From: Pseudomonas helleri
GTDB taxonomy: Bacteria > Pseudomonadota > Gammaproteobacteria > Pseudomonadales > Pseudomonadaceae
DNA length: 64,000 nt
Direction of reading: 5' to 3'
NCBI RefSeq assembly: GCF_009600315.1
Contig: NZ_WIWC01000012.1
Span: forward strand, 1 to 64,000
Position numbers and translations under genes: made by a program. Positions 1,993 to 16,646 of this stretch are shown in pieces (position 1 is the stretch's first letter; every line of letters begins with the position of its first letter). A model generated the notes under the pieces. It saw only the letters and a list, made by a program, of their open reading frames with translations. It had not been told where the DNA came from and made no database searches.

Positions 1993-2214
1993 TTAACCCA
2001 CCTTGCGGTACAAATCACCGACCGTGGTGGCGGCATACAGGTCTTCGCCGGTTACGCTTTTTTTATAGATCATGTCAAACATCACAATGACTCCAAGCGC
2101 AGCGAGGGAGTCCCACTCGGCCAAAGCCGACAGCCGTGTGTCCAGCGTAATGTCGACAGGCACCTGAAAGTCGGTGGCATCAATAAAGTTGGCGATAAAG
2201 GCTTCAGTACTCAT
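1993..2214 (-). CDS. Acyl carrier protein, dedicated
   Basis: A 73-residue acidic protein with the phosphopantetheine attachment motif WDSL; the modified serine is Ser36. It is the size of a free-standing ACP. Its start overlaps the aminotransferase stop by four bases, and the KAS III gene begins 3 bp after its end. It is therefore most likely a specialised carrier for the acyl group made by this operon, not the fatty-acid-synthesis AcpP, whose motif is usually the more conserved DSLDTVE type. It needs a phosphopantetheinyl transferase, which is not in the window. Confidence 0.85.
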   Translation of the reverse strand: MSTEAFIANFIDATDFQVPVDITLDTRLSALAEWDSLAALGVIVMFDMIYKKSVTGEDLYAATTVGDLYRKVG

Positions 2215-3371
2215 GGTTGCAGTCTCTTCGAATCAGACACGGTTAGGGGCGTAGCGCGAGAAATGAGGGGTACCGATGGAGCCTCACAGATCACGGCCAG
2301 CACACGTTCAACATCGTTCAGGGTTAAATCGGGATGAAGGGGCAGGCAAATCACTCGCTGCGCGACATGAGTGGCCACAGGTAGAGCATGGAAAACAGCC
2401 TGCTGACGCTGGCGATAGGCGGCCATGGTTGTTATCAGCGGGTAGAAATAACGGCGGGTATAGATCTGCTGTTGCCTGAAGGCGTCGTATAGCTGGTCAC
2501 GGCTCAGTGGATAGGCATCTTCAATCAAAATGGGGAAGTAGCCATGGTTGTCGGATTCACGGCATAGCGTAATGCCTGGCACTCCATCCAGACGGTCGCG
2601 GTACAACGCGTCAAACGTGGCGCGACGTTGCAGTGCCGCATCAATATGGGTCAGTTGCAACAGACCAAAAGCGGCGCTGATTTCGTTCATTTTTCCGTTG
2701 ATGCCACAGGCGACCACCGTGGTTTCATCGACAAACCCAAAGTTACGCAGCTGATCCACCAGACGCTTGGTTTCAAGCGTCGGGCTGATGATGGCGCCGC
2801 CTTCAAAGGTGTTGAAAACCTTAGTCGCATGCAGGCTCAAAATACTCATGTCGCCATGACGCAACACGCTGCCCTGCCCATCCTGAACCGCAAAGGCATG
2901 AGCCGCGTCATAGATCACCCGCAAGCCATGACGCCGGGCGATTTCCCCAATAGCGGCAACATCGCAGGGCACGCCATAGCAGTGCACCGGCAAAATAGCG
3001 CGGGTATGCGGGGTGATCGCCGCCTCAATAGCGGCGGGATCGAGATTGAAGGTCTGCGGATCGATATCGACAAACACCGGCGTTAACCGATTCCATACCA
3101 GTGCATGGGCGGTGGCCGCAAAGGTGTAAGGGGTGGTAATGACTTCACCCTCAATGGCCAGAGCTTGCAGCGCAGTCATTAACGCGGTGGTGCCATTGTT
3201 GAATAATGATAAATGTTCAACGTTAAGGTAATCCGCAAGAGCCTGTTCAAAGGCCTGGTGAAAAGGCCCCAGATTGGTCAAACGTTTGCTGTCCCAGATA
3301 TCACGCAAATACGGAATGAAATCATCCAGTTCGGGCAGGAGTGGACTGCTGACATACAGGTCTTTATTCAT
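2211..3371 (-). CDS. DegT/DnrJ/EryC1/StrS aminotransferase, VioA-like sugar aminotransferase
   Basis: 386 residues of the PLP-dependent sugar aminotransferase family. The PLP lysine is Lys184 (HATKVFNTFEGG), and the cofactor-binding aspartate is Asp155 in YDAAHAF. These enzymes transfer an amino group to a keto-deoxy sugar nucleotide, for example making dTDP-viosamine. It is the first gene of a four-gene operon; a candidate sigma-54 promoter lies at 3502-3516. The divergent neighbour is flagellin, so flagellin glycosylation is the likely destination. No glycosyltransferase, N-acyltransferase or methyltransferase is visible, so the pathway cannot be closed from this window alone. Confidence 0.85.
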   Translation of the reverse strand: MNKDLYVSSPLLPELDDFIPYLRDIWDSKRLTNLGPFHQAFEQALADYLNVEHLSLFNNGTTALMTALQALAIEGEVITTPYTFAATAHALVWNRLTPVFVDIDPQTFNLDPAAIEAAITPHTRAILPVHCYGVPCDVAAIGEIARRHGLRVIYDAAHAFAVQDGQGSVLRHGDMSILSLHATKVFNTFEGGAIISPTLETKRLVDQLRNFGFVDETTVVACGINGKMNEISAAFGLLQLTHIDAALQRRATFDALYRDRLDGVPGITLCRESDNHGYFPILIEDAYPLSRDQLYDAFRQQQIYTRRYFYPLITTMAAYRQRQQAVFHALPVATHVAQRVICLPLHPDLTLNDVERVLAVICEAPSVPLISRATPLTVSDSKRLQP

Positions 3372-3668: not shown

Positions 3669-3775
3669 TAAAACGCGCAAATAAAACTTAAGGCTCATCA
3701 ATAGTGCGTCGCCTTTGTAGGGTGAGCGGGCACTTATCGCCTGCATTCACCTCAGTGCAACCAAGGATACTGACC

Positions 3776-4651
3776 ATGGCTCTTACCATTCATACCAACT
3801 ACTCATCGTTGCTGACTCAGACCAACCTGAACAAAACCAACAACGCATTGGCTATTAACCAGCAACGCCTGGGTACTGGCCTGCGAATCAACTCCGCCTC
3901 TGACGATGCAGCAGGCTTGCAAATTGCCACTCGCCTTAACGCTCAAACCAAAGGCATGGCTGTGGCCGGTCGTAACGTGAATGACGCATCATCGCTGTTG
4001 CAAACCGCCGATGGCGCATTCGGCGAGATGACCGACATCCTGCAACGTATGAAAGACTTGGCCACACAATCTGCCAACGGAACTAACAGCGACGACGATC
4101 GTAAAGCCATGCAGGCCGAATACGATGAACTGGGTAAAGAACTCGGCAACATCATGGAGAACACGTCTTACGCGGGCGAGAAGCTGTTCGGCAAGGACGG
4201 TGCCACAGGTAAATTCGGTGCCGCTGTCAGCTTCCAGATCGGCGCAACTGCAGCCGAAACACTGACCCTGGACGTCACAGCACAAGCCGCCGCCCTGGGC
4301 ACCACCTTGGACGGTCTGTCCTCGAACTACACGACTTCGGGTACACCTGGTACTGAAATCAGCACCAGCGGCGCTGCTAATGCTCAGATCGACGTACTGT
4401 CCGCAGCCTTGAAAGACGTCGGTGAGTTACGCGGCCAGTTCGGCGCCAACATCAACCGTCTGGCTCATACCGCCAACAACCTGGCCAACATGAAAGACAA
4501 CACTGAAATGGCCCGAGGACGCATCATGGATGCCGACTTCGCCAGTGAGAGCGCCATGATGAGCAAAAACTCGATGCTGATGCAGTCGGGCATCTCCATG
4601 CTCAAGCAAACCGGTCAAATGCCTGGCCTGGTCATGTCATTGCTGGGCTAA
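3776..4651 (+). CDS. fliC: Flagellin, short lateral-type
   Basis: 291 residues from the ATG at 3776. That start has AAGGA eight bases upstream and gives the canonical N-terminus MALTIHTNYSS; an upstream in-frame ATG at 3704 would add an atypical 24-residue leader. The conserved D0/D1 helices are present at both ends (LNKTNNAL, LGTGLRINSASDDAAGLQIA, and a C-terminal SMLMQSGISMLKQTG). The central variable domain is very short. The protein polymerises into the filament after export by the flagellar type III system. It is followed by a strong terminator. The neighbouring sugar operon suggests that it is glycosylated. The gene content of the module points to the lateral filament subunit (LafA-like). 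Confidence 0.93.
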   Translation: MALTIHTNYSSLLTQTNLNKTNNALAINQQRLGTGLRINSASDDAAGLQIATRLNAQTKGMAVAGRNVNDASSLLQTADGAFGEMTDILQRMKDLATQSANGTNSDDDRKAMQAEYDELGKELGNIMENTSYAGEKLFGKDGATGKFGAAVSFQIGATAAETLTLDVTAQAAALGTTLDGLSSNYTTSGTPGTEISTSGAANAQIDVLSAALKDVGELRGQFGANINRLAHTANNLANMKDNTEMARGRIMDADFASESAMMSKNSMLMQSGISMLKQTGQMPGLVMSLLG

Positions 4652-4672
4652 AGCCGTCCCCGAACAAGAAAG

Positions 4673-4699
4673 CGCCCTTGCAATCAAGGGCGTTTTTTT
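4673..4699 (+). terminator. Rho-independent terminator of flagellin
   Basis: Perfect 8-bp stem CGCCCTTG / CAAGGGCG (4673-4680, 4685-4692) with a 4-base loop, followed by seven T residues (4693-4699). It starts 21 bases after the flagellin stop codon. Confidence 0.93.
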
Positions 4700-4802
4700 G
4701 GAAAAAATCTGATGGTTTACACAAAAAAAAGAAACGTCCTGCATCATTCTTTCGCCCAGCGCTGGAAAATTCTCTGACTTTATCGTAGAGAAGCCTACCC
4801 CT

Positions 4803-5597
4803 ATGAACACACTCTCCGCGAACTTGAAGACCGGGCATGGCGAGTGCCTGGCTTTTTTCTGCTCAGCACTTTGCACATTGACCCTGTACAAAAGTGCCAA
4901 CAGACAAATCATAGACTTGGGGTTTTCCGGCGGCCGACTGCTTGACCGATTGATGCAAGAGCCGGGAGAAATGATTGACCGCGACACCTTGACCGCCTAC
5001 GCCTGGCCCAATCGTATCGTCGGCCAGGGAAGTCTAAATCAGCAGATCTATACCTTGCGCAAAATTTTAGGCGATGAAAAAGATCGAAAGATCATTCAGA
5101 CCGTCACGCGGCGCGGCTATCGGTTTAATCCTGACTTCGTTGTGGCCCAGAGCGCGGTCACGCCTCCAGACATTCAAAGCGACAGGGGGCAAACGCTTTC
5201 ATTACGGTCGGTTTCACGCACTGAAATCCAGCACAAGTGGGCTATCCGGGCAATGGCTACAGCAGGGTTTGTGAGTTACATCCTGATCGCACATCCCAGC
5301 CAATTATTTGCCAGCCTGCACATTGTGGGGGATCACACGGTGATGTATGTCGAGACAAAGAAAGACCAACTCAAACACCTTATCAACGTGACGCGCGGCC
5401 TCAGCACACGGCTCGTGAGCATGAGCAGCAAGCCGCTGGAGTTGTCAATCGTGACGATCGACGATGAGACCTACCATATTTACTGCTCAGGCCAATCAGG
5501 TGCGAACTATATAAGTTTGCAGGATGATCAACTTCACACCATCAGCGACAACCAACTGCGCGAATGCATAGAAGGGGTCACTCAGCCCGTCCATTGA
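4803..5597 (+). CDS. ToxR/CadC-like membrane-anchored winged-helix regulator (LafZ-like)
   Basis: 264 residues. Residues about 30-112 form an OmpR/PhoB-type winged helix with the typical end VTRRGYRFNP. One hydrophobic segment (about 146-164) follows and then a roughly 100-residue C-terminal domain, probably periplasmic. This is the ToxR/CadC layout, in which a membrane-bound DNA-binding domain responds to an external signal. In lateral flagellar clusters such as Escherichia coli Flag-2 a putative transmembrane regulator (LafZ) sits beside the flagellin gene, which matches this position. The target is probably the local flagellar genes, but no operator was identified. The ribosome binding site is weak (GAGAAG about ten bases upstream). 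Confidence 0.75.
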   Translation: MNTLSANLKTGHGECLAFFCSALCTLTLYKSANRQIIDLGFSGGRLLDRLMQEPGEMIDRDTLTAYAWPNRIVGQGSLNQQIYTLRKILGDEKDRKIIQTVTRRGYRFNPDFVVAQSAVTPPDIQSDRGQTLSLRSVSRTEIQHKWAIRAMATAGFVSYILIAHPSQLFASLHIVGDHTVMYVETKKDQLKHLINVTRGLSTRLVSMSSKPLELSIVTIDDETYHIYCSGQSGANYISLQDDQLHTISDNQLRECIEGVTQPVH

Positions 5598-5605
5598 CGA
5601 CCGGC

Positions 5606-5631
5606 AATGCGCAGCCAAACGGCTGCGCATT
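5606..5631. terminator. Strong hairpin between convergent genes
   Basis: Perfect 11-bp stem AATGCGCAGCC / GGCTGCGCATT around a 4-base AAAC loop, between the ends of the regulator gene (5597) and motB (5645). There is no long T tract on either side, but the position suggests a bidirectional terminator. Confidence 0.6.
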
Positions 5632-5644
5632 GTACCGGGCAGGG

Positions 5645-6556
5645 CTAATGAGGCTTATCAGTGGGTGTTGGGACGGGCTCTACATAGTCAACGGCACCGG
5701 GGGAATAGTGCGCGAAGTTTTCGTTGAACAACTGCTTATAGAGTGTTTCTGCCTGCTCGGTCAGGACCAGCAACTCAATACGCCGGTTAGCCCCGCTCAT
5801 GGGGTCTTCAGGTCGTAAAGGCATGACATCGGCTTGCGCCGACACCTGCAAAATACCTTGCACCGGTAACCCTGAGTTCACCAGTACACTGCGAGCTTGC
5901 AAGGCCCTTTCGCCGGATAGATTCCAGTTATCATAACCGCGTGAATCCCGGTACGGGACGGCATCGGTATGCCCGCTGATAATCAACTTGTTCTGCACCT
6001 TGGCCAGCGCTTGCGCCAGCGCAGCCAGCAGGCTGCGAAAGTGCGGGTCAAGCGTCGCGCTGCCTCGCTCGAACATAAATCGCTTGTCATCATCCTTGAT
6101 CAGAATTCTCAAACCCTGAGGCACTACATGCACTTCGAGATTGGACTTCGAATCAGTGCTCTCAGCCAGCAAGGCCATAAGCCTGGCCAACGCCTGGAGG
6201 TCTGCCTCGCTGTCATAACGCTGTACAGCCTCTGAGCGGGAGTCGCTGAGCTGCACGTCTTGACGGCGCGGCACCCAATCAAATTCCGGCAAGCTTTCAA
6301 ATGCCACAGGCACTGAGCTCAGATCGTCGAACACCCCTGCTCCACCTTCAATCACCGATGATGCCAGCACACCCTTTGCAATGCGCTCCGCGTCGGCTTG
6401 CGGCTGAATAACCCACAGCACCATAAACAGCGCCATCATCGCCAGCGCAAAGTCGGCAAAGGCTACTTTCCAAGCACCGCTTTGGTGTTCGTTGTGCCCC
6501 CGCTTGCTGCGACGCTTGACAATAATCGGGGTGTGTTTGTCTTCACGCGTCCTCAT
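5645..6556 (-). CDS. motB: Flagellar motor stator protein MotB (LafU-like)
   Basis: 303 residues from the ATG at 6556, which has GAGGA upstream; an in-frame TTG at 6571 is less likely. One N-terminal transmembrane helix carries the proton-binding aspartate (FADFALAMMALF, Asp35), and a C-terminal OmpA-like peptidoglycan-binding domain follows (ISGHTDAVPYRDSRGYDNWNLSGERA). With MotA it forms the proton-driven stator unit. The start overlaps the motA stop by 14 bases. The gene is the last in the fliD-to-motB operon, the position of lafU in lateral flagellar operons. Confidence 0.9.
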   Translation of the reverse strand: MRTREDKHTPIIVKRRSKRGHNEHQSGAWKVAFADFALAMMALFMVLWVIQPQADAERIAKGVLASSVIEGGAGVFDDLSSVPVAFESLPEFDWVPRRQDVQLSDSRSEAVQRYDSEADLQALARLMALLAESTDSKSNLEVHVVPQGLRILIKDDDKRFMFERGSATLDPHFRSLLAALAQALAKVQNKLIISGHTDAVPYRDSRGYDNWNLSGERALQARSVLVNSGLPVQGILQVSAQADVMPLRPEDPMSGANRRIELLVLTEQAETLYKQLFNENFAHYSPGAVDYVEPVPTPTDKPH

Positions 6557-7418
6557 TGCGTCCGTCCTCAAAACTGGTCACCCACCTTTCCAACATCTGG
6601 AAGGCCGGCTTGACGTCCTGCTCAATCAACTTGCGCCCCGCATCCACCGCCAACAGCGTTGGCTTGCCGGCCACATGGGCGACCAGGGTCGTGCGCACGC
6701 ACTCCAGGGCTGACATCTCGGTTCTGATGCGCTGCGCCATTGCATTGCTCAGCGGCTCCATCATGCAATAACAAAAGAAAATCCCGAGAAACGTACCTAC
6801 CAATGCTGCTGCCACGTGGGTTCCGATTTCAGCCACCGAGCCACCAATACTGTCCATGGTGATGATGATGCCCATGATTGCCGCCAAGATGCCGAATCCC
6901 GGCATGGCTTCGCCCACTTTGTGTAACGAGCGTGAAGGCAGCAGCAAAGCCTCGTGCATGGCGTCGAGTTCCTGCTCAAGAAAACCTTCAAGTTCATGGG
7001 CGCTGATTTTTCCCATGGCCATCAACCTGAAATTATCGGCAATAAATGCCATCAGGTTTTTCTCTTGCAAAATCAGCGGGTATTTTGTGAAGAGATCACT
7101 CTGATCCGGCTCTTCAATGTGCGCATCAAGCGCTTTAAGCCCACCCATGTCGACAGTTTCGAGCAGTTCATAAAGCAGCATCAGCAACTCTCGCTGAAAC
7201 GCCTCACCGCGACGGCGAAAGGAGAACACCCCTTTGACCTGCACCCACATCTCAAGCAGCACTTCCTTGGGGTTTCCGATAATCATGCTACCCAGGGCAG
7301 CCCCCACCACGATCAGCATTTCCGAGGGCTGCCACAACACGGACATGCTCCCTCCGGCAATCACAAAACCACCCAGCACGCAGCCGATAATGATCAATGC
7401 ACCTAACAGTTTCTGCAC
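6543..7418 (-). CDS. motA: Flagellar motor stator protein MotA (LafT-like)
   Basis: 291 residues with a GTG start, four hydrophobic segments (about 3-25, 28-50, 170-192, 198-220) and the conserved prolines in MPGFGI and MMEPLSNA that take part in torque generation. The large cytoplasmic loop lies between helices 2 and 3. The gene begins two bases before the fliA stop region ends and overlaps motB, so translation is coupled. It lies immediately downstream of a sigma-28 gene, the lafS-lafT order, which differs from the usual Pseudomonas arrangement of motAB or motCD. Confidence 0.92.
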   Translation of the reverse strand: MQKLLGALIIIGCVLGGFVIAGGSMSVLWQPSEMLIVVGAALGSMIIGNPKEVLLEMWVQVKGVFSFRRRGEAFQRELLMLLYELLETVDMGGLKALDAHIEEPDQSDLFTKYPLILQEKNLMAFIADNFRLMAMGKISAHELEGFLEQELDAMHEALLLPSRSLHKVGEAMPGFGILAAIMGIIITMDSIGGSVAEIGTHVAAALVGTFLGIFFCYCMMEPLSNAMAQRIRTEMSALECVRTTLVAHVAGKPTLLAVDAGRKLIEQDVKPAFQMLERWVTSFEDGRNEDA

Positions 7419-7419
7419 G

Positions 7420-8154
7420 TTAATTACTCTTGGTTAAGAAGGTTCTGGCCTTATCAATGGCCTGTTTGCTCAGCTGGCACACACGCGCATCACTGATGTC
7501 GAGCACCAGACCGATTTCCTTCAGGTTCAGCTCGTGCAAGTAGTAGAGGGTCAATACCAGCCGCTCCCGCTCGTTCAGCTCGTCCAGCGCCTGAATCAAC
7601 ATTCGTTGGTTGCCTACGATTGCCTCGACACTGGCGTCGCCGTTATGAAAGTCCCGGCTGGTGTCCAGCAACAGGGCATCCAGGCTCTCTAGCGCCTCTC
7701 CCGCCTCGGCTTGCAAGTACGCCTGAAACTGCGAAGGGCTCAGCCCCGTGGCCTGCAAGGCTTCCTCATCGCGGGGCTGGCGACCCAGTTGGCGCGTCAG
7801 GTTGCGCAAAATATCCCGGGTTTTGTGAGCCTGCTGGCGAACTTGCCGCGGGCGCCAATCAAGCCTGCGCAACTCATCAAGAATGGCACCCCGAATTCGC
7901 AGCGCTGCAAAGCGTGCAAAGTGCTCATCGGGCACGCCATAGCGACGCAGTCCTTCCAGCAAACCCATCAGGCCAATCTGCTCCATGTCTTCACGATCAA
8001 GCACCTGACTGGTTTGCAGAGACAATTGATTGACTATCCGTTTGACCAGCGGAAGGTAGTTCACTATCCAGCGCTGTTCAGCTTCAGGCGCTGTAACTAC
8101 CGCGCAAGGGTCGCCCGCATCGGGGCCGTAATCAGCCAGACGATCGCTATTCAT
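7420..8154 (-). CDS. fliA: RNA polymerase sigma-28 factor for flagellar operon (FliA/LafS)
   Basis: 244 residues with regions 2, 3 and 4 of the FliA class. Region 2 has DMEQIGLMGLLEGLRRYG and RIRGAILDELRRLDW. Region 4 has LNERERLVLTLYYLHELNLKEIG followed by the helix-turn-helix DISDARVCQL. It would direct late flagellar genes such as the flagellin at 3776. No FlgM anti-sigma gene is visible in the window. A sigma-28 gene inside the motility operon between fliL and motA is the lafS arrangement and suggests a system with its own late-gene switch. Confidence 0.9.
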   Translation of the reverse strand: MNSDRLADYGPDAGDPCAVVTAPEAEQRWIVNYLPLVKRIVNQLSLQTSQVLDREDMEQIGLMGLLEGLRRYGVPDEHFARFAALRIRGAILDELRRLDWRPRQVRQQAHKTRDILRNLTRQLGRQPRDEEALQATGLSPSQFQAYLQAEAGEALESLDALLLDTSRDFHNGDASVEAIVGNQRMLIQALDELNERERLVLTLYYLHELNLKEIGLVLDISDARVCQLSKQAIDKARTFLTKSN

Positions 8155-8162
8155 GTGGGCAA

Positions 8163-8633
8163 TTACTGCACCAGCATCTTGCTGACCAGTACCGACGTGA
8201 ACGGTATGCCCAGTCCTTTGGCACTGAAACTTTTGCGCAGGTCTTGCTCAAGACGTGATTGCAGATCAGTGAGCGACAACGCACGCAGTTGATTGAGCGG
8301 GAGCGTCGACAAGGAGCCAACCACTGCATTGCGCACCAATAGCTCGGCCTGCTTGAATGCGCTCGCGGACTGTTCGGCATCCCCTTGCAAGGCGAGATCG
8401 AGCACAAAGTAGTGCTCGCGGTCGTCGCCTCGCAGATTCACGACAATTTTATCTACCGGATAAAACACATAGTTAGCTGGATCCTGAGCAATCGTAGCCT
8501 CGCCAACCTTTTGCACCTGCTCAACGTCCGAGGTCTTGTCAGGGCGCAAATACAGATAGCCAAACACGACACTTCCCAACGTGATGACCATGTTCAGCCC
8601 TACGATTAACAAAATTACACGTGGCATCCGCAT
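8163..8633 (-). CDS. fliL: Flagellar basal-body-associated protein FliL (LafF-like)
   Basis: 156 residues from the ATG at 8633; an in-frame TTG lies at 8645 and another ATG at 8627. There is one N-terminal transmembrane helix (VILLIVGLNMVITLGSVV), and the periplasmic FliL domain has the typical stretch FYPVDKIVVNLRG followed by FVLDLALQ. FliL surrounds the stator and stabilises motor function. It ends 8 bp before the sigma-28 start. Confidence 0.88.
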   Translation of the reverse strand: MRMPRVILLIVGLNMVITLGSVVFGYLYLRPDKTSDVEQVQKVGEATIAQDPANYVFYPVDKIVVNLRGDDREHYFVLDLALQGDAEQSASAFKQAELLVRNAVVGSLSTLPLNQLRALSLTDLQSRLEQDLRKSFSAKGLGIPFTSVLVSKMLVQ

Positions 8634-8692
8634 ACAGTCTTTCAATCCACTTCGAGTTGAATTTGGGTGTGGCGCAAGCGCCGTATTTTTTG

Positions 8693-9769
8693 TTACACCG
8701 TGACAAGTACGTCACTGCCATACCCTGTGGGTACGATCTCAGGTATCTGCGCTTCATCGATCGCCTGAGCGATGGCGGGTTCAGACTGCTGGCGCGCCTG
8801 TTCTCGAGACGACTGCCCTCGTGAATCGCTCGAAACCTGTACGTCAACGTGAAGCAGATTTTGCTGCACTAACTCTTGACGCATGCGCTCACTGGAGTGC
8901 GCGAGCAAGCGAGCAACATCGGTCTGGGCGGCCGATATATGCACACTCAAGCGACCGGACTCATGACTGATGAAGATCTCAAGGCTGCCCAACTCCGGTG
9001 GATCCAGACGAATCGTGGCTTGCTGAAAGCGCTGCTGAACCTGGATCTCAACGGTTTCACGCAAGGCATTGAGCATCTGCTCACCCCAGCGCGCTTGAGG
9101 GGCCACCAGCTTAAGCCCGCGCTCAAGCACAGGCTCTGACAAGGGTGACGCGCCGGTCAGGGCAATCGGCGTCACCGTCGCGTCAGCTCGCTCGGAACTC
9201 ACTAAACCTGGCTTCGCTATGCCAGCCCACTGGCCCTCAGCGGGTACGGCTGTTACAGCGGTCTTGACGGGCGTGGTCGCCCCCGCTCCTTCACGTGCAG
9301 CCGCCAAAACCTGAGGATCGAGCGACAACGCCATGGGTTCACCCTGAGTTGTGCGGTTAAGCGTCAAGGGCGCATCAGGTAATGGCGTCGGCTCGTTTAA
9401 CCTCTGCAATACGCCGGCATCTACCGCCAGTCGCGTCAATACGCGCGCAGGAGACGGGGGCGGTGCAGACGCTGCGTTTGAGTCGCGGGCCTGCACATTG
9501 ACCGCTTGCTGGTTGAGCATCATAAGCAGCCATTGCTGTGGGTCCGCCAGCACCTCGACAGCGGGCGCTTGCTCCTCTTGATCTTGTAGCTGCACGGCCT
9601 CGGCGGGCATGTCCATCAACGGCAACGGCAACGGCAACTCAAGCTCCGGCGTTTGCGGGGTATAGATCACCTGCACGAGGGCCTCGATTGCACCCTCCAC
9701 ACCCGCGTCAGGCGCAGGTTGCGCCGCCGGCTGGCTGAAACCGCCGAGCAAAGAAAGCGATGCGGACAT
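8693..9769 (-). CDS. fliK: Flagellar hook-length control protein FliK (LafE-like)
   Basis: 358 residues. The first two thirds are low-complexity and rich in Ala, Pro and Gln, as expected of the FliK ruler. The C-terminal third is the conserved Flg_hook domain with RLDPPELGSLEIFI (about residues 256-269) and QNLLHVDVQVSSD. FliK measures hook length and switches export specificity through FlhB. It starts 3 bp downstream of fliT. No hook gene is in the window, so the hook it would measure must be encoded elsewhere. Confidence 0.88.
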   Translation of the reverse strand: MSASLSLLGGFSQPAAQPAPDAGVEGAIEALVQVIYTPQTPELELPLPLPLMDMPAEAVQLQDQEEQAPAVEVLADPQQWLLMMLNQQAVNVQARDSNAASAPPPSPARVLTRLAVDAGVLQRLNEPTPLPDAPLTLNRTTQGEPMALSLDPQVLAAAREGAGATTPVKTAVTAVPAEGQWAGIAKPGLVSSERADATVTPIALTGASPLSEPVLERGLKLVAPQARWGEQMLNALRETVEIQVQQRFQQATIRLDPPELGSLEIFISHESGRLSVHISAAQTDVARLLAHSSERMRQELVQQNLLHVDVQVSSDSRGQSSREQARQQSEPAIAQAIDEAQIPEIVPTGYGSDVLVTV

Positions 9770-9772
9770 GGC

Positions 9773-10090
9773 CTAGTTCACTCCTTGCAGACTGTCTGCC
9801 AACGAATAGGCCTGACGCCCTTCTGCATAGTCAGTGTGGTTCGCCAATATCTGGCTCAAACGCGCACACTCGCGGGCGCACGCCTGCAAGGCATGACCGT
9901 GCAACGCCTTGAGCGGCGCCAGTTTGTGTCGGGTTTCGTCGTTGAAGGGCTGGGCATCCTGCAAGCGCTCAAGGCAAAGCCGTATCCACCCGTCGACTTC
10001 ACTGATACGCACCCAGTCCTCCCTGGCCAGGGCTTCGGCGAGCAACCCTTGCAGCTGGGCCAGACGACTAAACTCAGCTGCGGATGGCAT
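9773..10090 (-). CDS. fliT: Small flagellar chaperone, FliT-like (LafD position)
   Basis: 105 residues from the ATG at 10090, which has GAGGG five bases upstream; a GTG at 10096 is the alternative. The protein is predicted to be largely helical, without signal peptide or membrane segment. FliT proteins are poorly conserved chaperones of the cap protein FliD. The assignment rests on size and on the position between fliS and fliK, which is lafD in lateral operons. It overlaps the fliS end by 17 bases. Confidence 0.65.
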   Translation of the reverse strand: MPSAAEFSRLAQLQGLLAEALAREDWVRISEVDGWIRLCLERLQDAQPFNDETRHKLAPLKALHGHALQACARECARLSQILANHTDYAEGRQAYSLADSLQGVN

Positions 10091-10457
10091 TGACACCCTC
10101 CCACCCTTCGCGAATCTGCTCGAGCAGGTGCGTTACTTCATCTATTCCGCTGACCGACAACGAAGCACTGACCTCAACCAGACGATGCAGGCAATAGTCA
10201 TAAACACACGATAGACTGACAATCAACTCCCCACCCTGTTCATGATCGAGGGTGCTGTTGAGTGCGTTGATGATGTTCATGCACTTCTCCAGCGACTGGC
10301 CTTTGAGGTCGAAATGCCGGGCTTCAATGTGTCCACGGGCGCGAGACAACTCATCCAGAAGCCCATCGAACAACACCAGCACCAATTCATAAGGAGAAGC
10401 GCAAGACACTTGAGTGTCGAGGTCGATTGCGCGGTAGTGGTCATAGCCGTCATTCAT
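10074..10457 (-). CDS. fliS: Flagellin export chaperone FliS (LafC-like)
   Basis: 127 residues with the FliS signature: a tyrosine-rich N-terminus (YDHYRAIDLDTQVSCASPYEL) and LVLFDGLLDELSRARGHIE. FliS binds the flagellin C-terminus in the cytoplasm and prevents premature polymerisation. The gene starts 8 bp after the fliD stop and overlaps fliT, so it belongs to the same operon. Confidence 0.9.
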   Translation of the reverse strand: MNDGYDHYRAIDLDTQVSCASPYELVLVLFDGLLDELSRARGHIEARHFDLKGQSLEKCMNIINALNSTLDHEQGGELIVSLSCVYDYCLHRLVEVSASLSVSGIDEVTHLLEQIREGWEGVNAIRS

Positions 10458-10465
10458 TTTTCAGA

Positions 10466-11790
10466 TCATCCGAACATGCTGAAGGTTTGTTCCATCGCCG
10501 CCATCACCTGCGCCAACTGGGTGTACTGCTTGAGATAGCGCTGATAGTGATTCTGGTATTTGATTTCCAGATCCTCGTATTTCTCGTCGACACGTTGCAG
10601 CAGGTTATTGAGGTTATCCTTGCGCGCCTTCATGGCCCCTGTGCTGCCGCTGGTATAAGTACCGAGCCTTTTATCGAGGGTTTCGAGCAAGTTTCCCGAA
10701 CCTGAAAAGAGTTTTTCGAAACCTTCCGGGTTTGCATCCAGCATTTTTTCGAAAGCTTTGGTATCCAGCTTGAGCTTGCCGTCCGACCCTGCCAGCACAC
10801 CAAACTCCATCAACGTAACGCCGCCAAAAGGCGTGCGCAGACCGAGTTGAGCATGGCCTCTATGGCACGGATGCTGGAGTCGCCCGCCAGTGCGCCGCGC
10901 TCGCCGTTTTCCCCTCCTGAGCCGGTCAGCTCATCGAAGGTGCTCAACATCGTATTGATCGCAGTGACAAACTCATTGAGCTTGTCATTGGTAGCTGTTT
11001 GGTCACGGCTGATATTGACGGTCAGCGGCTCGTCCCCGGCCTCATGCACTTTGCTGAACGTCAGGCTTACGCCTTCGATCATGTCCTTGAAGGTGTTGGA
11101 GCTTTGCTGCAGCTTCATCCCGTTGGCGTCTGCCCCTAGGTAGATAATGGCGTCCTGGGCCTTGGACAATTCCTTGGCGGCTCCCAGACTGGCTTCGAGC
11201 GGGCTGCCTGCGGCATCTGTGCGCATTTCAATGGCGTACTGCTCGCCTGTTTCTTCGGCGCTCAGCACCATCGTCACTTCACCGCCGCTGCGCACCAGCG
11301 TGGCCTTGACGCCCTCGTTATCCGGATGATTATTAATTGCCGAAGCCAGCTCCTCCTGGGACAGAGCGCCATCGCCGTTACTGTCCGCAGCGGCGAGATC
11401 GACGGCAAACTCGACGCCGTCCTGCTTGATATACAAGTTGCCCGAGTCGGCGGCATCATCACCCAGCCCGCTGAGCGAGACCTGATGCCGACTGGCCAGT
11501 TGCTCGACAAAAAACTGATAGCTGCCCTCTTTGGCGCTGGCACCCACCGTGGCGCTGGCGATGCCTTCAGCGCTGAAAGTAGCCGCATTGATCAGCATGC
11601 TTTTGTCGGCGCCCTTGAAGCTTTTAATCGCATTGCCCAAAGCTTTGAGCGCTGTATCCAGGGCGGTGACTGCCTCCAGCTGGGCTTTGTATTTGGTCTC
11701 GTTACGCTGGGCCTGCGCCAACTCGCGCTGGACTTCATATTCAGCCAGAAGTTTGGCTTGAGCCTGGATGTAGTCGGTATCAATAGCCAT
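10466..11790 (-). pseudogene. fliD: Flagellar cap protein FliD, frameshifted (LafB-like)
   Basis: Two overlapping reading frames make one FliD. The N-terminal part (10810-11790, 326 codons) begins MAIDTDYIQAQAKLLAEYEV, has the FliD core (NTFKDMIEGVSLTFSK) and runs into a short out-of-frame tail after AIEAMLNSV. The C-terminal part continues in another frame with LRTPFGGVTLMEFG down to MEQTFSMFG. One missing base between 10841 and 10840 (minus strand, TCGGT|CTGCGC) restores a 441-residue protein of normal FliD length. No homopolymer or slippery heptamer lies at the break. FliD caps the filament; loss usually lets flagellin leak out and abolishes motility. The break could be a real mutation or a sequencing error. 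AAGGAG (11800-11805) precedes the start. Confidence 0.85.
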
Positions 11791-11817: not shown

Positions 11818-11832
11818 GCAAAACCAGTGCCA
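11818..11832 (-). promoter_or_regulatory. Candidate sigma-54 promoter of the fliD-motB operon
   Basis: On the minus strand the sequence is TGGCAC-TGGTT-TTGC, a full match to the -24 and -12 core with correct spacing. Transcription would start near 11806, giving a very short leader that still includes the AAGGAG ribosome binding site. An AT-rich tract just upstream (11837-11876) could be a bending or IHF site. This suggests activation by an enhancer-binding protein (FleQ or LafK type), which is not encoded in the window. Confidence 0.65.
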
Positions 11833-12267
11833 ATAGATAACTTGTTGTTTTATATTGATTATTTTTTGTTTTTGTGAAGCGGTACTTCCGGTTTGGACCT
11901 AGAGGGATGAAGTTGGCCGGAAAGGGGGTTTCCGCATTGTTCAACTCAGAAGTCAGCAGGGTTTAAAGGCGACATAAAGCGGGGAGTGATTAAGGCCAAG
12001 AAGTTTTAAGAGGGGATCAAGGGGAGGATAAATTCGCTTTTAGCTTTTTATTTTAAGAACAATGTCACTGCGGCCACCGAAACAGTGAGGACGACACTGG
12101 GCCCCTGCGTAGGCACTCGCGAGCGGGGCGGCAAATCAAGAGCACAAGCAAAACCAGCTCAAAAACGAAGCGAAATATTCATGCTTATCGCGCGGGTGTG
12201 CTTCGTGTTTTGCAGCACGCTGGAAATGATTGCCAAACGCTGGGTCAAGCCCCAGCACCCAAAACGC

Positions 12268-12323: not shown

Positions 12324-13706
12324 CTACCTCCCCATCGCCCGTGCCGCGTCAGCGGTGTACTGGTCGGGGGTAAATTTACCCTCGTTGAGAATCGGGCCTT
12401 TCTTCGCTTCGTTGGTCATGCCGTAGCCGGTGTATTGACCCGAGTTCAAGTCGATAAAGAACTGCGAACCCGCCTGCCAGGCACTCATGTCCGGGTGGTA
12501 GTAATAGTTGATCATGGCGTGCTTCCACAACTGGCCGCGTGCGTCGTAGTTGTCTGCCAGAACCGAGTGCCATGTGTCTTCGTCAAGAAACAGCACACGC
12601 TTGCCATACACATGGCGGTAGCCTTCTTTCAGGTCCGCTTCAAGGACCCAGACACGACGCAGTTCATAGCGCATCAAGTCCGGATTGGGATGGTTGGGCG
12701 TCAGCATGTCGGCGTATTTGACCGTACCGGCGTTCGCCTTGTAGGCATTGGCCGGGATGTAGACTTCGCGCTTGCCGATCAACTTCCAGTTAAAGCGCTC
12801 TGGCGAGCCGTTATACAAACGGTCTTCGTCGACGGTCATGGTGCCGTTGGTGCCGATCATCGGCTGGTCATACCCGTAACCCGGCAATTGGCGCACGCGC
12901 CGGGTTGAAGGGCTGTAGGTCCAGGCCTGACGTTGATCGGTGGAGAAGTTGTAGGGTTCGTGAGCGATGTTCAACGTACCGTTGTCACGCGCAGGCTTGA
13001 GGGTCTGGTTGTTGCTCATCGACTGAATCTTGCCCGAAGTCTGGGGCTCAACCACCGGCGAGTTGGCCTGGGACAAGTTACGGGCAAAGGCACGGCCCCA
13101 GCCAATGCTACCGTTAGGCAAGACCGAGGCCAAATCGCTGGTTTTTTCTTCGGTCCAGGCACGGGCTGGCAGTTGGTGGTTCCACAGTACTTCCATGCCG
13201 GTTTTCGGAATTGGGAACGGGACTTGCCCCAACCCCTCGAAGCCCATGCCATCGTTCACCAGCTTAGCGTTCAAGGCGTTGCTCATGACCCGCTTGCACA
13301 CATAATCCGGGTAGCGGTAATCACGGTGGCCGGGGTAGATATTCATCTTGTAGGTGGTCGGATAACGCTTGAGCAGCGCTTTTTGGCCTTCGGTGAGCTT
13401 GTCGGCGTATTGATCCATGTTCTGCGCCGTGATCACCAAAATCGGTTTTTCAGCGGCATAGGGATCAATCGGCTGGTCGCCGGAAAATTTGACGTGATTC
13501 CAACCCGGCACTTCCCCCAGGTATTTGCCGGTGTAAGGCGGGATAGTACCCGCCGCGTTGCCGGCCTGTTCGGCCCCCACACAGGTCAGCTCTTTACCCA
13601 GTTTGGCCGCTTCGGCGGGCGATACCTGAGCGAATGCCGACCCTATGGCGAGGCCATTGACGGCCAGGGTGGCTGCGAGCACTACGCCTGTTCTTGTTAT
13701 TTTCAT
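12324..13706 (-). CDS. DUF1329 family secreted protein
   Basis: 460 residues from the ATG at 13706, which has a strong AGGAGG upstream; a longer frame to 13760 lacks a comparable site. The first 26 residues are a Sec signal peptide (VVLAATLAVNGLAIGSAFA). The mature protein matches the DUF1329 family of periplasmic or outer-membrane-associated proteins with a LolA-like fold. DUF1329 genes often accompany DUF1302 genes in steroid and other hydrophobic-substrate catabolic clusters, where a role in uptake or envelope trafficking is suspected but unproven. No DUF1302 partner is present here. It lies downstream of the CoA ligase with an 86-bp gap that holds a possible third copy of the 16-bp motif. 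Confidence 0.8.
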   Translation of the reverse strand: MKITRTGVVLAATLAVNGLAIGSAFAQVSPAEAAKLGKELTCVGAEQAGNAAGTIPPYTGKYLGEVPGWNHVKFSGDQPIDPYAAEKPILVITAQNMDQYADKLTEGQKALLKRYPTTYKMNIYPGHRDYRYPDYVCKRVMSNALNAKLVNDGMGFEGLGQVPFPIPKTGMEVLWNHQLPARAWTEEKTSDLASVLPNGSIGWGRAFARNLSQANSPVVEPQTSGKIQSMSNNQTLKPARDNGTLNIAHEPYNFSTDQRQAWTYSPSTRRVRQLPGYGYDQPMIGTNGTMTVDEDRLYNGSPERFNWKLIGKREVYIPANAYKANAGTVKYADMLTPNHPNPDLMRYELRRVWVLEADLKEGYRHVYGKRVLFLDEDTWHSVLADNYDARGQLWKHAMINYYYHPDMSAWQAGSQFFIDLNSGQYTGYGMTNEAKKGPILNEGKFTPDQYTADAARAMGR

Positions 13707-13792
13707 GTATTGCCTCCTACGCGAATAAGGCTTGCTGGGTATGGGTCCATTCTTCGCCATCCACCGGCGAGCACATCGTCCACAAAGACTAA

Positions 13793-15481
13793 TCAGGCCG
13801 TTACCAGCACTTCTTTGAGCAATCCTTTGAGCAGCTTGCCCGACGCATTGCGAGCAAATGGGGTGTGTTGCACATGGATCTGTGCCGGCACTTTGTAGCT
13901 CGCCAGACGCTGGGCAAAATACCCGCGCACGGCTTCGCTGTCGGGGCAGTCGCCCGCATGGCCGCGCACCACCACAAACACCACCTCGCCCAGTACATCG
14001 TCCGGCACGGCAAAGGCGGCGGCTTCAATCACGCCGGGCATTTCACACGCACAGGATTCAATCTCGGCTGCGGAAATTTTCTCGCCGCCACGGTTGATCA
14101 AATCCTTGGCGCGGTCAGTGATATAGAGAAAACCTTCGTCATCCAGATGGCCAATATCGCCGGTGTCGAGCCAGCCATCACTCAAGGTCCGGGCACTGGC
14201 TTCAGGCAGATTCCAGTAGGCAGTCATCAAGGTCGGCGAGCGCACCCAAATCAGCCCGCTGACGCCCGTAGGCATTGGCCGCTGCGGGTTATCGCCAATG
14301 CGCACATCGACAATCGGCAAGGGCCAGCCAGCCGACGCAGGCTTATAGATGAACTGATCACCACCAATGGCCGCGCAGATACCGTTGCTTTCGGTCAGAC
14401 CGTAGCCACTGCCACCGACGGCCTCGGGTTTGCGTTGGGTCAAGTGCGCCAACAGGCTGGCCGAGGGTGCCGCCCCGCCCAGACCCAAGCCGTACAGACT
14501 CTGGGTATCGGCACTGCCGAAGCGTGGCGAGGTCAGCAGTTGCTGCATCATCACCGGGGCACCATTGAACTGGGTGCAGTGTTCGTCGCGGATCAGGTCG
14601 AAGGCTTTGTTCACGTCCCACTTGTACATCAGCACCAGCCGTCGACCGCCACGCAGGGCCAGCAGGAACTGGGCGTGCAGCCCACTGACATGAAACAGCG
14701 GCACCGCCATCAGGGTGGTCGGGGCAAAGCCGCTGTTGATGACGACACTGATGCGCTCAGGTGAGCTAACCGCGCAGAAAACGCCTTGAAACTCCAGCGC
14801 AACCAGAGCTTGACACACCGCACCATGGGTCGACAGCACGCCCTTGGCCAAGCTGGTAGTGCCCGAGGTGTATAGGATCATCGCCGGGTCATCAGCTTTG
14901 ACGCTCGGCACCGGCGCATCCCGCAACGGCTCAGCCAGCAGCTCTTCCAGACGCTGGCAATGCTCGTCGCGAGGCTGGTTGGGGTCCATGCCCACCACCA
15001 CCGTCGCCAAACCGTGTTCGCGCAGGTCATCCTTGAGCAGTTGCAGGCGCGGCTCGTCGCACAGCAAGAGGTGCGCACCGCTGTCCTGCAACCCATGGAA
15101 CAATTCGTCGCGCAGGCCCCAGCTGTTCAAAGGCACACACACACCAGCGCAACGCTGGATTGCGGCAAACGCCACCAGCCAGGCCGGTTGGTTACGCATG
15201 GCAATCGCCACACGATCGCCCTTGCGCACTCCAAAGCGGTGCACCAGCTGGCCCGCCAGACGATCGACCTGATCAAAAAACTGGGTGAAGGTCAGGCGTT
15301 GTTGCTCCCACACCAGAAATTCGCGATCCGCGTGAACCCGGCCAGTGTCAATTGCAGCCCAGACGCTTTCAGCGCTATGACGAAAGTGCCTGGGGCCACC
15401 AGCCACAGGCGTCAGCACTTCATAAGGCGACCCGGGACCAATCAGTTGATCCCAGGCGTTCTGCCATTGTTCAAGTTTCAT
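13793..15481 (-). CDS. Acyl-CoA ligase (AMP-binding), probable steroid side-chain CoA ligase
   Basis: 562 residues from the ATG at 15481, preceded by GGAG. ANL-superfamily motifs are in order: the P-loop LYTSGTTSLAKG, the A5 motif GYGLTES, the A8 hinge region WLDTGDIGHLDDEGFLYITD and the C-terminal lysine motif NASGKLLKG. It activates a carboxylic acid to an acyl-CoA through an acyl-adenylate. Downstream of two acyl-CoA dehydrogenase pairs, a MaoC hydratase and an Ltp2-like aldolase, the probable substrate is a steroid or bile-acid side-chain carboxylate, as for StdA1 or FadD17/19-type ligases. Exact chain length cannot be read from sequence. Confidence 0.8.
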   Translation of the reverse strand: MKLEQWQNAWDQLIGPGSPYEVLTPVAGGPRHFRHSAESVWAAIDTGRVHADREFLVWEQQRLTFTQFFDQVDRLAGQLVHRFGVRKGDRVAIAMRNQPAWLVAFAAIQRCAGVCVPLNSWGLRDELFHGLQDSGAHLLLCDEPRLQLLKDDLREHGLATVVVGMDPNQPRDEHCQRLEELLAEPLRDAPVPSVKADDPAMILYTSGTTSLAKGVLSTHGAVCQALVALEFQGVFCAVSSPERISVVINSGFAPTTLMAVPLFHVSGLHAQFLLALRGGRRLVLMYKWDVNKAFDLIRDEHCTQFNGAPVMMQQLLTSPRFGSADTQSLYGLGLGGAAPSASLLAHLTQRKPEAVGGSGYGLTESNGICAAIGGDQFIYKPASAGWPLPIVDVRIGDNPQRPMPTGVSGLIWVRSPTLMTAYWNLPEASARTLSDGWLDTGDIGHLDDEGFLYITDRAKDLINRGGEKISAAEIESCACEMPGVIEAAAFAVPDDVLGEVVFVVVRGHAGDCPDSEAVRGYFAQRLASYKVPAQIHVQHTPFARNASGKLLKGLLKEVLVTA

Positions 15482-15518
15482 CTTGTTAGTCTCCGGGCTT
15501 GAACCCCTGCACACCGGT

Positions 15519-16646
15519 TCAAGCGAGTGCGCCATAACGCTCGCAGTGATAATCGGCATCCCCCAGGCAAGCCTGTGCCACACGAATGCGCTTGAGAAAC
15601 AAACCGACATCCAGTTCGTCAGTGACACCAATACCGCCGTGCATTTGCACCGCTTCATTGGCCACCTTGACGGCCATCAGCCCGGCCTTCCATTTGGCCA
15701 GGCTCACCAGTCGTTGACGCTCCACCTCGCTCAAAGCGCTATCGTCCAGCGCAGCCAAACCGGCGATCACTGCGCTGCGTGCCAGTGCCAGCTCCACATA
15801 GAGCTGGGCCGACCGATGTTGCAGGGACTGAAAGGAGCCAATGGCGACGTCGAACTGCACGCGGGTTTTCAGGTAATCGAGGGTCAACGCGAAGAGTTTT
15901 TCAGCCATGCCCAGCATCTCGGCCGCCAGGCACACACGGCCGCGATCCAGTGCGATGGTTAACGCCGCACCGGCCGACCCCAGATCACCCAGCAAGGCAT
16001 CTGGCCCAACTTGCACCTGCTCCAGTTGCACGTGCGCGTGGTTACGCGAGTCAATCAGCGACAAGGGTTCAACCCTTAAACCCTGCGCACCGGCGGGCAC
16101 CAGAAACAGGCTGACGCCTTGCTGTGCATTACCTGCAGCCACGAGGTAGCCATCAGCCCCTACCCCGTCGATCACGAAGGTTTTTTGCCCGTTCAGACAA
16201 AACCCCTGCGCATTGGCCACGGCTTGCACCGCCAGCTGCGCGGGGTTGTGCCGTGGGCGCTCGTCCAGTGCCAGCGCCAGACGCTGCTCGCCGCTGATGG
16301 TGGCCGACAACCAGCGATCCTGCTGTTGCGCATTGCCTTGCAGGTGCAACAAAGAACCGCACAGCACCACGCTTGATAGCAAGGGTGACGCACTTAGGTT
16401 GCTGCCGATGGATTCAAAAATCGGGCCCAGGCCCATGCAGCCGAAATCCAGACCGCCGAGGTTTTCCGGGAACGGAATTGCACTCCAGCCCAGAGCTACA
16501 GCCTCTTGCCACAGTTGGCTGTCGAAGCCGAGTTGACTGCTCTCGTCGCGCAAGGCGCGCTGACGGGACACGGGACTGCGCGCCGCCAGAAACTCGCGGG
16601 CGCTGTCGGCCAACAGCCGATGATCTTCGCTATAAAGCAGGTTCAT
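15519..16646 (-). CDS. Acyl-CoA dehydrogenase, beta-like subunit of pair 1
   Basis: 375 residues of the acyl-CoA dehydrogenase fold. The helical N-terminus starts MNLLYSEDHRLLADSAREFL, and near the C-terminus is VQMHGGIGVTDELDVGLFLKRI. Steroid-degrading bacteria use heteromeric alpha2beta2 acyl-CoA dehydrogenases made from two adjacent genes. This gene starts 11 bp after the partner at 16658-17848 and has the HGGIG type of C-terminus, whereas the partner has the GGASEIQ type. It probably takes part in FAD-dependent alpha,beta-desaturation of a steroid side-chain acyl-CoA. Confidence 0.82.
   Translation of the reverse strand: MNLLYSEDHRLLADSAREFLAARSPVSRQRALRDESSQLGFDSQLWQEAVALGWSAIPFPENLGGLDFGCMGLGPIFESIGSNLSASPLLSSVVLCGSLLHLQGNAQQQDRWLSATISGEQRLALALDERPRHNPAQLAVQAVANAQGFCLNGQKTFVIDGVGADGYLVAAGNAQQGVSLFLVPAGAQGLRVEPLSLIDSRNHAHVQLEQVQVGPDALLGDLGSAGAALTIALDRGRVCLAAEMLGMAEKLFALTLDYLKTRVQFDVAIGSFQSLQHRSAQLYVELALARSAVIAGLAALDDSALSEVERQRLVSLAKWKAGLMAVKVANEAVQMHGGIGVTDELDVGLFLKRIRVAQACLGDADYHCERYGALA

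Follow-up and report, generated by a model that had tools for sequence, protein, structure and literature searches.

Late flagellar genes of lateral type in Pseudomonas helleri lie beside a separate primary flagellar gene set

Results

Late flagellar gene cluster in the window

The DNA analyzed here, referred to as the window, comprises bases 1–64000 of contig C33 (126,250 bases; NZ_WIWC01000012.1) in the draft genome of Pseudomonas helleri (GCF_009600315.1; 5.12 Mb, 218 contigs). Late flagellar genes were found near its left end, at 3779–11790, together with a lateral-type flagellin gene (lafA) and the gene of a LafZ-like regulator. Eight genes, fliD, fliS, fliT, fliK, fliL, fliA, motA, and motB, occupy the minus strand in this order between 11790 and 5645, and the flagellin (3779–4651) and a winged-helix regulator (4803–5597) are encoded on the plus strand. 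A preliminary description of this DNA had read the genes as a lateral (laf) module with its own sigma-28 factor and stators; all the genes that it named were present in the list of open reading frames (ORFs) where it had placed them. The Laf letters and the name LafW follow usage for Vibrio and Escherichia coli.

The flagellin LafA exceeded the cut-off of the curated model for lateral flagellins, NF038071 (379 against 365 bits), and was 53% identical to the lateral flagellin of Vibrio campbellii. MotA (LafT; 6543–7418) passed TIGR03818 with 371 bits and was 64% and 58% identical to the MotA of the E. coli Flag-2 system and the lateral MotA of V. campbellii, respectively. For the other stator protein, MotB (LafU; 5645–6571), the best model was LafU (256 bits, below the cut-off of 383); the protein was 44% identical to Flag-2 LafU and carried OmpA and MotB_plug domains according to Pfam. 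FliA (LafS; 7420–8154), the sigma-28 factor, passed TIGR02479 and NF005413, and its best model, NF009091, gave 268 bits against a cut-off of 339. Its identity was 48% to Flag-2, 45% to Vibrio lateral, and 38% to P. aeruginosa polar FliA. FliS (LafC; 10074–10457) was recognized by PF02561 and by 55% identity to Flag-2 FliS, and the hook-length control protein FliK (LafE; 8693–9769) by PF02120 and 42% identity over 83 residues to Flag-2 FliK. FliL (LafF; 8163–8645) matched PF03748, with no match to Flag-2 FliL. The fliT (lafD) position (9773–10096) was assigned from its place and conservation, being 84% identical in P. saxonica (L022) and equally positioned in related loci; its product gave no Pfam match and no match to Flag-2 FliT.

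The regulator next to lafA had been described as ToxR-like. Its winged helix was clear (PF00486; 33% identity over 97 residues to a Flag-2 winged-helix protein), but its membrane segment was weak (hydropathy maximum, 1.29), so that the likeness to ToxR is supported only in part. The cap gene fliD (lafB; 10466–11790) was not one open frame but consisted in this assembly of two overlapping frames, 11790–10810 and 10813–10466, both of them supported by Pfam. Comparison with P. saxonica (93% identical DNA), whose fliD homologue is a single open frame, traced the frame change to a small difference in length near 10.84 kb. The break may be a sequencing error or a mutation, and a draft of 218 contigs cannot separate the two.

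Other lateral genes on separate contigs

The window holds late genes, and the early genes had been supposed to be either distant or lost. A second fliF and flhA, hook genes, and a LafK-type activator were all found elsewhere in the genome, and loss of the early genes was thereby rejected. On C73 (74904–88515), flhA-flhB-fliR-fliQ-fliP-fliN-fliM diverge from the gene of the LafK-type activator and fliE-fliF-fliG-fliH-fliI-fliJ, and most genes of this early cluster matched annotated Flag-2 proteins over nearly their full length. On C151, flgA and flgB to flgL precede a LafW-like gene (25% identity to its Flag-2 counterpart). On C187, FlgM (28.7 bits; cut-off, 25) and FlgN (35.8 bits; cut-off, 30.5) were located by profile search and from the position of their P. 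psychrophila counterparts; E. coli FlgM and FlgN queries gave no convincing match in the three stretches of the genome searched.

Gene names on C73 and C151, like those on the primary contigs C174, C134, and C184 described below, were first assigned by eye from ORF lists. Comparison with reference proteins, which can support a name only if the reference contains that gene, supported 19 of the 22 tested names on C73 and C151 as well as the LafW-like gene; flgF matched FlgG. The unmatched names were flhB, flgA, and flgJ, of which flhB and flgA are unannotated in the reference stretches and FlgJ was outside the query set. The rod domain of flgJ was matched in a separate comparison; lateral flhB and flgA are named by eye and by their conserved place.

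The activator (C73, 81505–82917) contains a sigma-54 domain and a Fis helix according to Pfam and is 51% identical over 381 residues to V. campbellii LafK. As in that protein, no FleQ N-terminal domain was detected at E 0.001, whereas the FleQ of the same genome carries it.

The layout in P. saxonica was used as a guide to the arrangement in the host. Because the left ends of C151 and C33 map approximately 400 bp apart there, the hook operon most likely adjoins the left end of the window. The parts of the early set thus differ, the export and MS-ring genes (C73) and flgMN (C187) being distant and the hook operon probably adjacent. A single P. saxonica contig carries LafK and, approximately 36 kb away, a FlgM match of 24.2 bits (slightly under the cut-off of 25); a linkage of C187 and C73 in the host would follow by analogy with this arrangement only. 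Just after lateral fliJ, at approximately C73 88552–89167 (L006, 8553–9168), long inverted repeats with arms of 110, 107, and 38 nt occupy the place of flgM-flgN in two other species looked at. They are possibly the scar of a rearrangement.

Separate primary flagellum

The genome contains two FlhA, two FlgI, two flagellins, and three MotB-type stators. The second, larger flagellin is encoded on C184, adjoining apparent fliD, fliS, fleP, and fleQ and two-component genes. The primary set as a whole is distributed over C174, C134, C184, and C154, with FleQ identified by Pfam and some names given by eye. Primary FlhA, FlhB, FliM, FliA, and MotC were 69–90% identical to the annotated polar proteins of P. 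aeruginosa, and FliL was 58% identical; the P. aeruginosa reference stretch has no counterpart for primary FliC, FliD, FliS, FleP, FleQ, FlgG, FlgI, FlgK, and FlgL. The lateral-type locus is therefore not the only flagellar locus of the genome.

Kinship and trees

The FlhA encoded on C73 shared 62% identity with the lateral protein of V. campbellii and 61% with the E. coli Flag-2 protein; the corresponding values for P. aeruginosa polar and E. coli Flag-1 FlhA were 49% and 45%. In quick maximum-likelihood trees, FlhA, FliA, MotA, and MotB clustered with the Vibrio and Flag-2 lateral proteins, away from the primary ones. Support for this split in the Shimodaira–Hasegawa-like approximate likelihood ratio test was 100 for FlhA, MotB, and FliA and 98 for MotA. 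The FliA tree was built with chosen rows, 26 of the 80 related loci described below plus references. The other trees used a list of 12 loci plus references, all of which entered the MotB and MotA trees and only one of which holds FlhA. The trees proposed in the preliminary description thus favored the lateral homologues for FliA and MotB, and grouping of the window proteins with the polar proteins of P. aeruginosa was not observed. The flagellin tree has a single primary row and adds little. LafK and FleQ were distinguished by their Pfam domains, as their tree did not settle the question.

Gene order and distribution

Relatives were collected by a FliA scan of named genomes, from which the best 80 of 179 loci, mostly of Pseudomonas and Stutzerimonas, were retained. 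The nearest was that of P. saxonica (FliA, 92%). The order fliD-fliS-fliT-fliK-fliL-fliA-motA-motB equals that of the annotated E. coli Flag-2 record, as had been proposed, and all eight genes were so ordered in 69 of the 80 loci. The other 11, betaproteobacterial by title, had 5 to 7 of the eight genes in unchanged order. This conservation is far beyond chance. The same late genes in the same order were also seen in the lateral clusters of P. saxonica, P. psychrophila, P. plecoglossicida, P. citronellolis, and Stutzerimonas; in P. plecoglossicida (L025, 13874), lafA is strongly diverged (46%). In Plesiomonas, LafU-T-S-F-E-X-C-B-A are listed in matching order, with LafX in the place of LafD (PMC4481668).

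Early genes lay inside the fetched stretch in at least 56 of the 80 loci and hook genes in at least 48, both being lower bounds set by the limited length of the stretches. The layout of LafK and FliA was compared in 11 named genomes picked from the 80. Both were on one contig, approximately 10–12 kb apart, in seven genomes, and on different contigs in the other four (P. saxonica, P. chengduensis, P. mendocina, and P. thermotolerans), as in the host. Contiguity thus predominates in the genomes compared, and the break in the host lineage is common to P. saxonica, which shares both flanks of the late cluster with the host.

A sample of 298 Pseudomonas genomes (completeness at least 90%), drawn from the genus and including the host, was used to assess distribution. 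Lateral FliA was detected at E 1e-50 or better in 17 genomes and a flagellin above the LafA cut-off in 17, with 16 genomes common to both. One Pseudomonas genome (G249:C1:524439-526420) had two flagellins above the LafA cut-off and no lateral FliA at E 1e-50.

A membrane-anchored ORF separates motB from lafZ in many Pseudomonas lateral clusters (e.g., L026, 12565–13044). A homologue was found in 59 of the 80 loci, and a stricter test of place and hydropathy was passed in 31 of the 69 loci having lafZ; this ORF and lafZ might form a regulator–partner pair. It does not adjoin lafZ in the window or in P. saxonica.

Comparison with the E. coli and Vibrio systems

The E. coli Flag-2 record (CP054241) resembles the host system in the order fliD-S-T-K-L-A-motA-lafU, in having lafA, a LafZ-type winged-helix gene, and a LafW-like hook-associated gene (25%), and in a sigma-54-like site before its fliD, seen by eye. 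The placement of lafA and lafZ does not follow E. coli: both lie beyond motB in the window and upstream of fliD in the E. coli record. Furthermore, the hook, early, and late genes are joined in E. coli, whereas flgMN stands apart in the host, and the interrupted gene is lafK in the E. coli record and fliD here. The lateral system of V. campbellii (NZ_CP050465, a record without annotation) shows kinship in FlhA, MotA, LafA, and LafK but differs in that no LafZ homologue was detected at E 1e-3 in the stretch searched.

Promoter-like sites

A candidate sigma-54 promoter of the fliD operon was located at 11818–11832 on the minus strand, 42 bases before fliD. Of 68 related loci, 64 had a strict site of this kind before fliD, compared with 9 of 1360 single-base shuffles.

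A second sequence, TTAA-N16-GTCGCC, resembled a variant sigma-28-type promoter. Candidates were located before lafA (3688–3713, plus strand) and 203 bp before fliD (11968–11993, minus strand). Of 81 regions upstream of lafA, 66 contained the block (two-base block shuffles, 5/2430), and it preceded fliD in 58 of 68 loci (shuffles, 4/2040). These counts leave out the 11 betaproteobacterial loci and include related rows that are not independent; the block was first spotted by eye, and the sequences that suggested the pattern are among those later counted. The spacer was mostly 16 bases, with a few sites of 15 or 17. The block also stands just before flgM on C187 and between fliJ and fliD in 31 of 46 loci, a place occupied by flgM in the two loci looked at; this count, too, leaves out the betaproteobacterial loci. 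Among 12 other genes, no block was found in the upstream 300 bases of 11 (3 to 69 sequences each), and the twelfth, flgK, had it in 3 of 3. V. campbellii has TTAA-N17-GTCGCC before its fliD. The classical sigma-28 pattern was matched before none of 82 lafA copies; it was equally unmatched before the host's own primary fliC (C184), so that its absence at lafA says little.

Neighboring genes

To the left of lafA, three minus-strand genes suggest a short sugar-gene island: an SDR oxidoreductase (197–952; FabG-like SDR models, all listed below cut-off; 94% identical beside lafA in P. saxonica L022), a beta-ketoacyl-acyl carrier protein synthase III-like protein (949–1989; model below cut-off; 97% in L022), and a DegT/DesI-like nucleotide-sugar aminotransferase (2211–3371; best model TIGR04427 with 278 bits against a cut-off of 650; 89% in L022). 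A partial match to the aminotransferase lies beside lafA also in L023. On the C151 side, a hexapeptide transferase and a large glycosyltransferase were found. By the arrangement in P. saxonica, the island most likely separates the hook operon from the flagellar genes at the left end of the window, and its products probably serve glycosylation of the lateral flagellin.

On the right flank of fliD, the window and P. saxonica carry the same genes. The ORFs at 12324–16646, which have no flagellar appearance, look by eye like a DUF1329-type protein, an acyl-CoA synthetase, and an acyl-CoA dehydrogenase, and they lie beside fliD in both species. Among the records examined, one described as an 847-kb conjugative plasmid of P. 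aeruginosa (NZ_CP131792.1, 61358–87433; L104) holds the polar flagellar region for export and chemotaxis, which may reflect a problem of assembly or a fusion with the chromosome.

Discussion

The genome of P. helleri contains two flagellar gene sets, one of which shows lateral-type kinship, a conserved late-gene order, and promoter-like blocks. We consider it very likely that the genes in the window are the late part (filament, cap, stator, and sigma-28) of a lateral system of the Vibrio laf and E. coli Flag-2 type, standing beside the ordinary FleQ-type flagellum of a species close to P. saxonica. Lateral flagella of Pseudomonas are already published. Earlier reports mention secondary lateral flagella in many gammaproteobacteria (PMC8042155) and a lateral flagellin of P. 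stutzeri (PMC5773237), and a proteome figure for Pseudomonas sp. M1 gives LafA, FliA, FliK, FlgE, FlhA, MotA, and MotB as lateral proteins (PMC13111069). The open-access texts and excerpts that we retrieved gave no account of the scatter of the cluster or of the variant promoter block, which is no proof of absence.

Several observations weigh against this interpretation or its details. The LafU model and the best FliA model both score under their cut-offs, and the frame of fliD is interrupted in this assembly. Several reference branches in the trees are long, and those of MotB and MotA drew warnings that long branches meet, for which reason we make no claim on relations within the lateral clade. 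The LafK/FleQ tree, also with long branches, left Vibrio LafK and one FleQ-like row unresolved. As for regulation, the strict sigma-54 pattern was absent near the lateral early genes (C73) and hook genes (C151); because no such site was found there, LafK control of these genes is something that we infer. The variant block had no strict site on C151, so that the host's own flgK is without one, and it was not found in the E. coli late stretch (L109). Genome-wide it was not enriched, with 20 matches compared with 36 for a reversed control pattern, and for this reason only position and conservation speak for it.

With these reservations, the lateral system might operate as follows. LafK and sigma-54 would switch on the fliD–motB operon, and probably the early genes too. 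The operon would supply lateral FliA, which its own FlgM would hold back until the hook is complete. Once freed, FliA would act at the TTAA-N16-GTCGCC promoter to transcribe lafA, flgM, and the operon that encodes it, and rotation of the lateral motor by LafT and LafU would serve movement over surfaces. The cluster behind this scheme, contiguous in most genomes compared, appears to be broken in the present lineage, with the late and hook genes, the early genes, and flgMN apart.

We further propose, tentatively and at somewhat less than even odds, that the sigma-28 circuits of the two flagella are kept apart by the wording of their promoters. Lateral FliA would read TTAA-N16-GTCGCC before lafA, before flgM, and before the fliD-fliA-motB operon that encodes it; in the last case the block lies upstream of a LafK/sigma-54 site and would form a self-amplifying switch; the primary sigma-28 would read another sequence. 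Such a circuit could outlive the scattering of the cluster, since the variant promoter is present on both the late and the flgM fragments. That the classical pattern also missed the primary fliC lowers the odds of the proposal, as the contrast between the two wordings is only putative.

The strongest alternative is that the lateral system is decaying, its cluster broken up and its fliD interrupted, and makes no lateral filament. Besides the frame break and the scattering of the loci over contigs, the membrane-anchored lafZ-partner ORF, which has homologues in 59 of the 80 related loci, was found in none of the host's three stretches searched. However, the remaining lateral genes are open, most of them matching Flag-2 proteins over nearly their full length, and the promoter-like sites are retained. 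Scatter alone does not indicate decay because P. saxonica has the split as well and keeps fliD open, and in a draft of 218 contigs the fliD break itself may be a sequencing error. We therefore regard decay as unlikely. Judged by kinship, activator, and gene order, it is far less probable that these genes belong to the FlhDC-controlled second flagellum reported for P. fluorescens F113, likewise a second flagellum in Pseudomonas (PMC8036289): FlhA is nearer to Flag-2 (61%) than to E. coli Flag-1 (45%), a LafK-type activator lies within the early locus, and the gene order is unlike that of Flag-1. The reading of the genes as an unusually ordered primary Pseudomonas set, for which nothing beyond family homology speaks, is refuted by the distinct primary set on C174, C134, C184, and C154 and by trees that separate the lateral from the primary proteins, leaving it a negligible probability.

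Within Pseudomonas, the lateral system has a patchy distribution (17 of the 298 sampled genomes by FliA, host included). A cluster that is usually contiguous can break up within a lineage while most of its parts stay open, and the shared promoter-like block makes it possible to test directly how two flagellar programmes might be separated within a cell.

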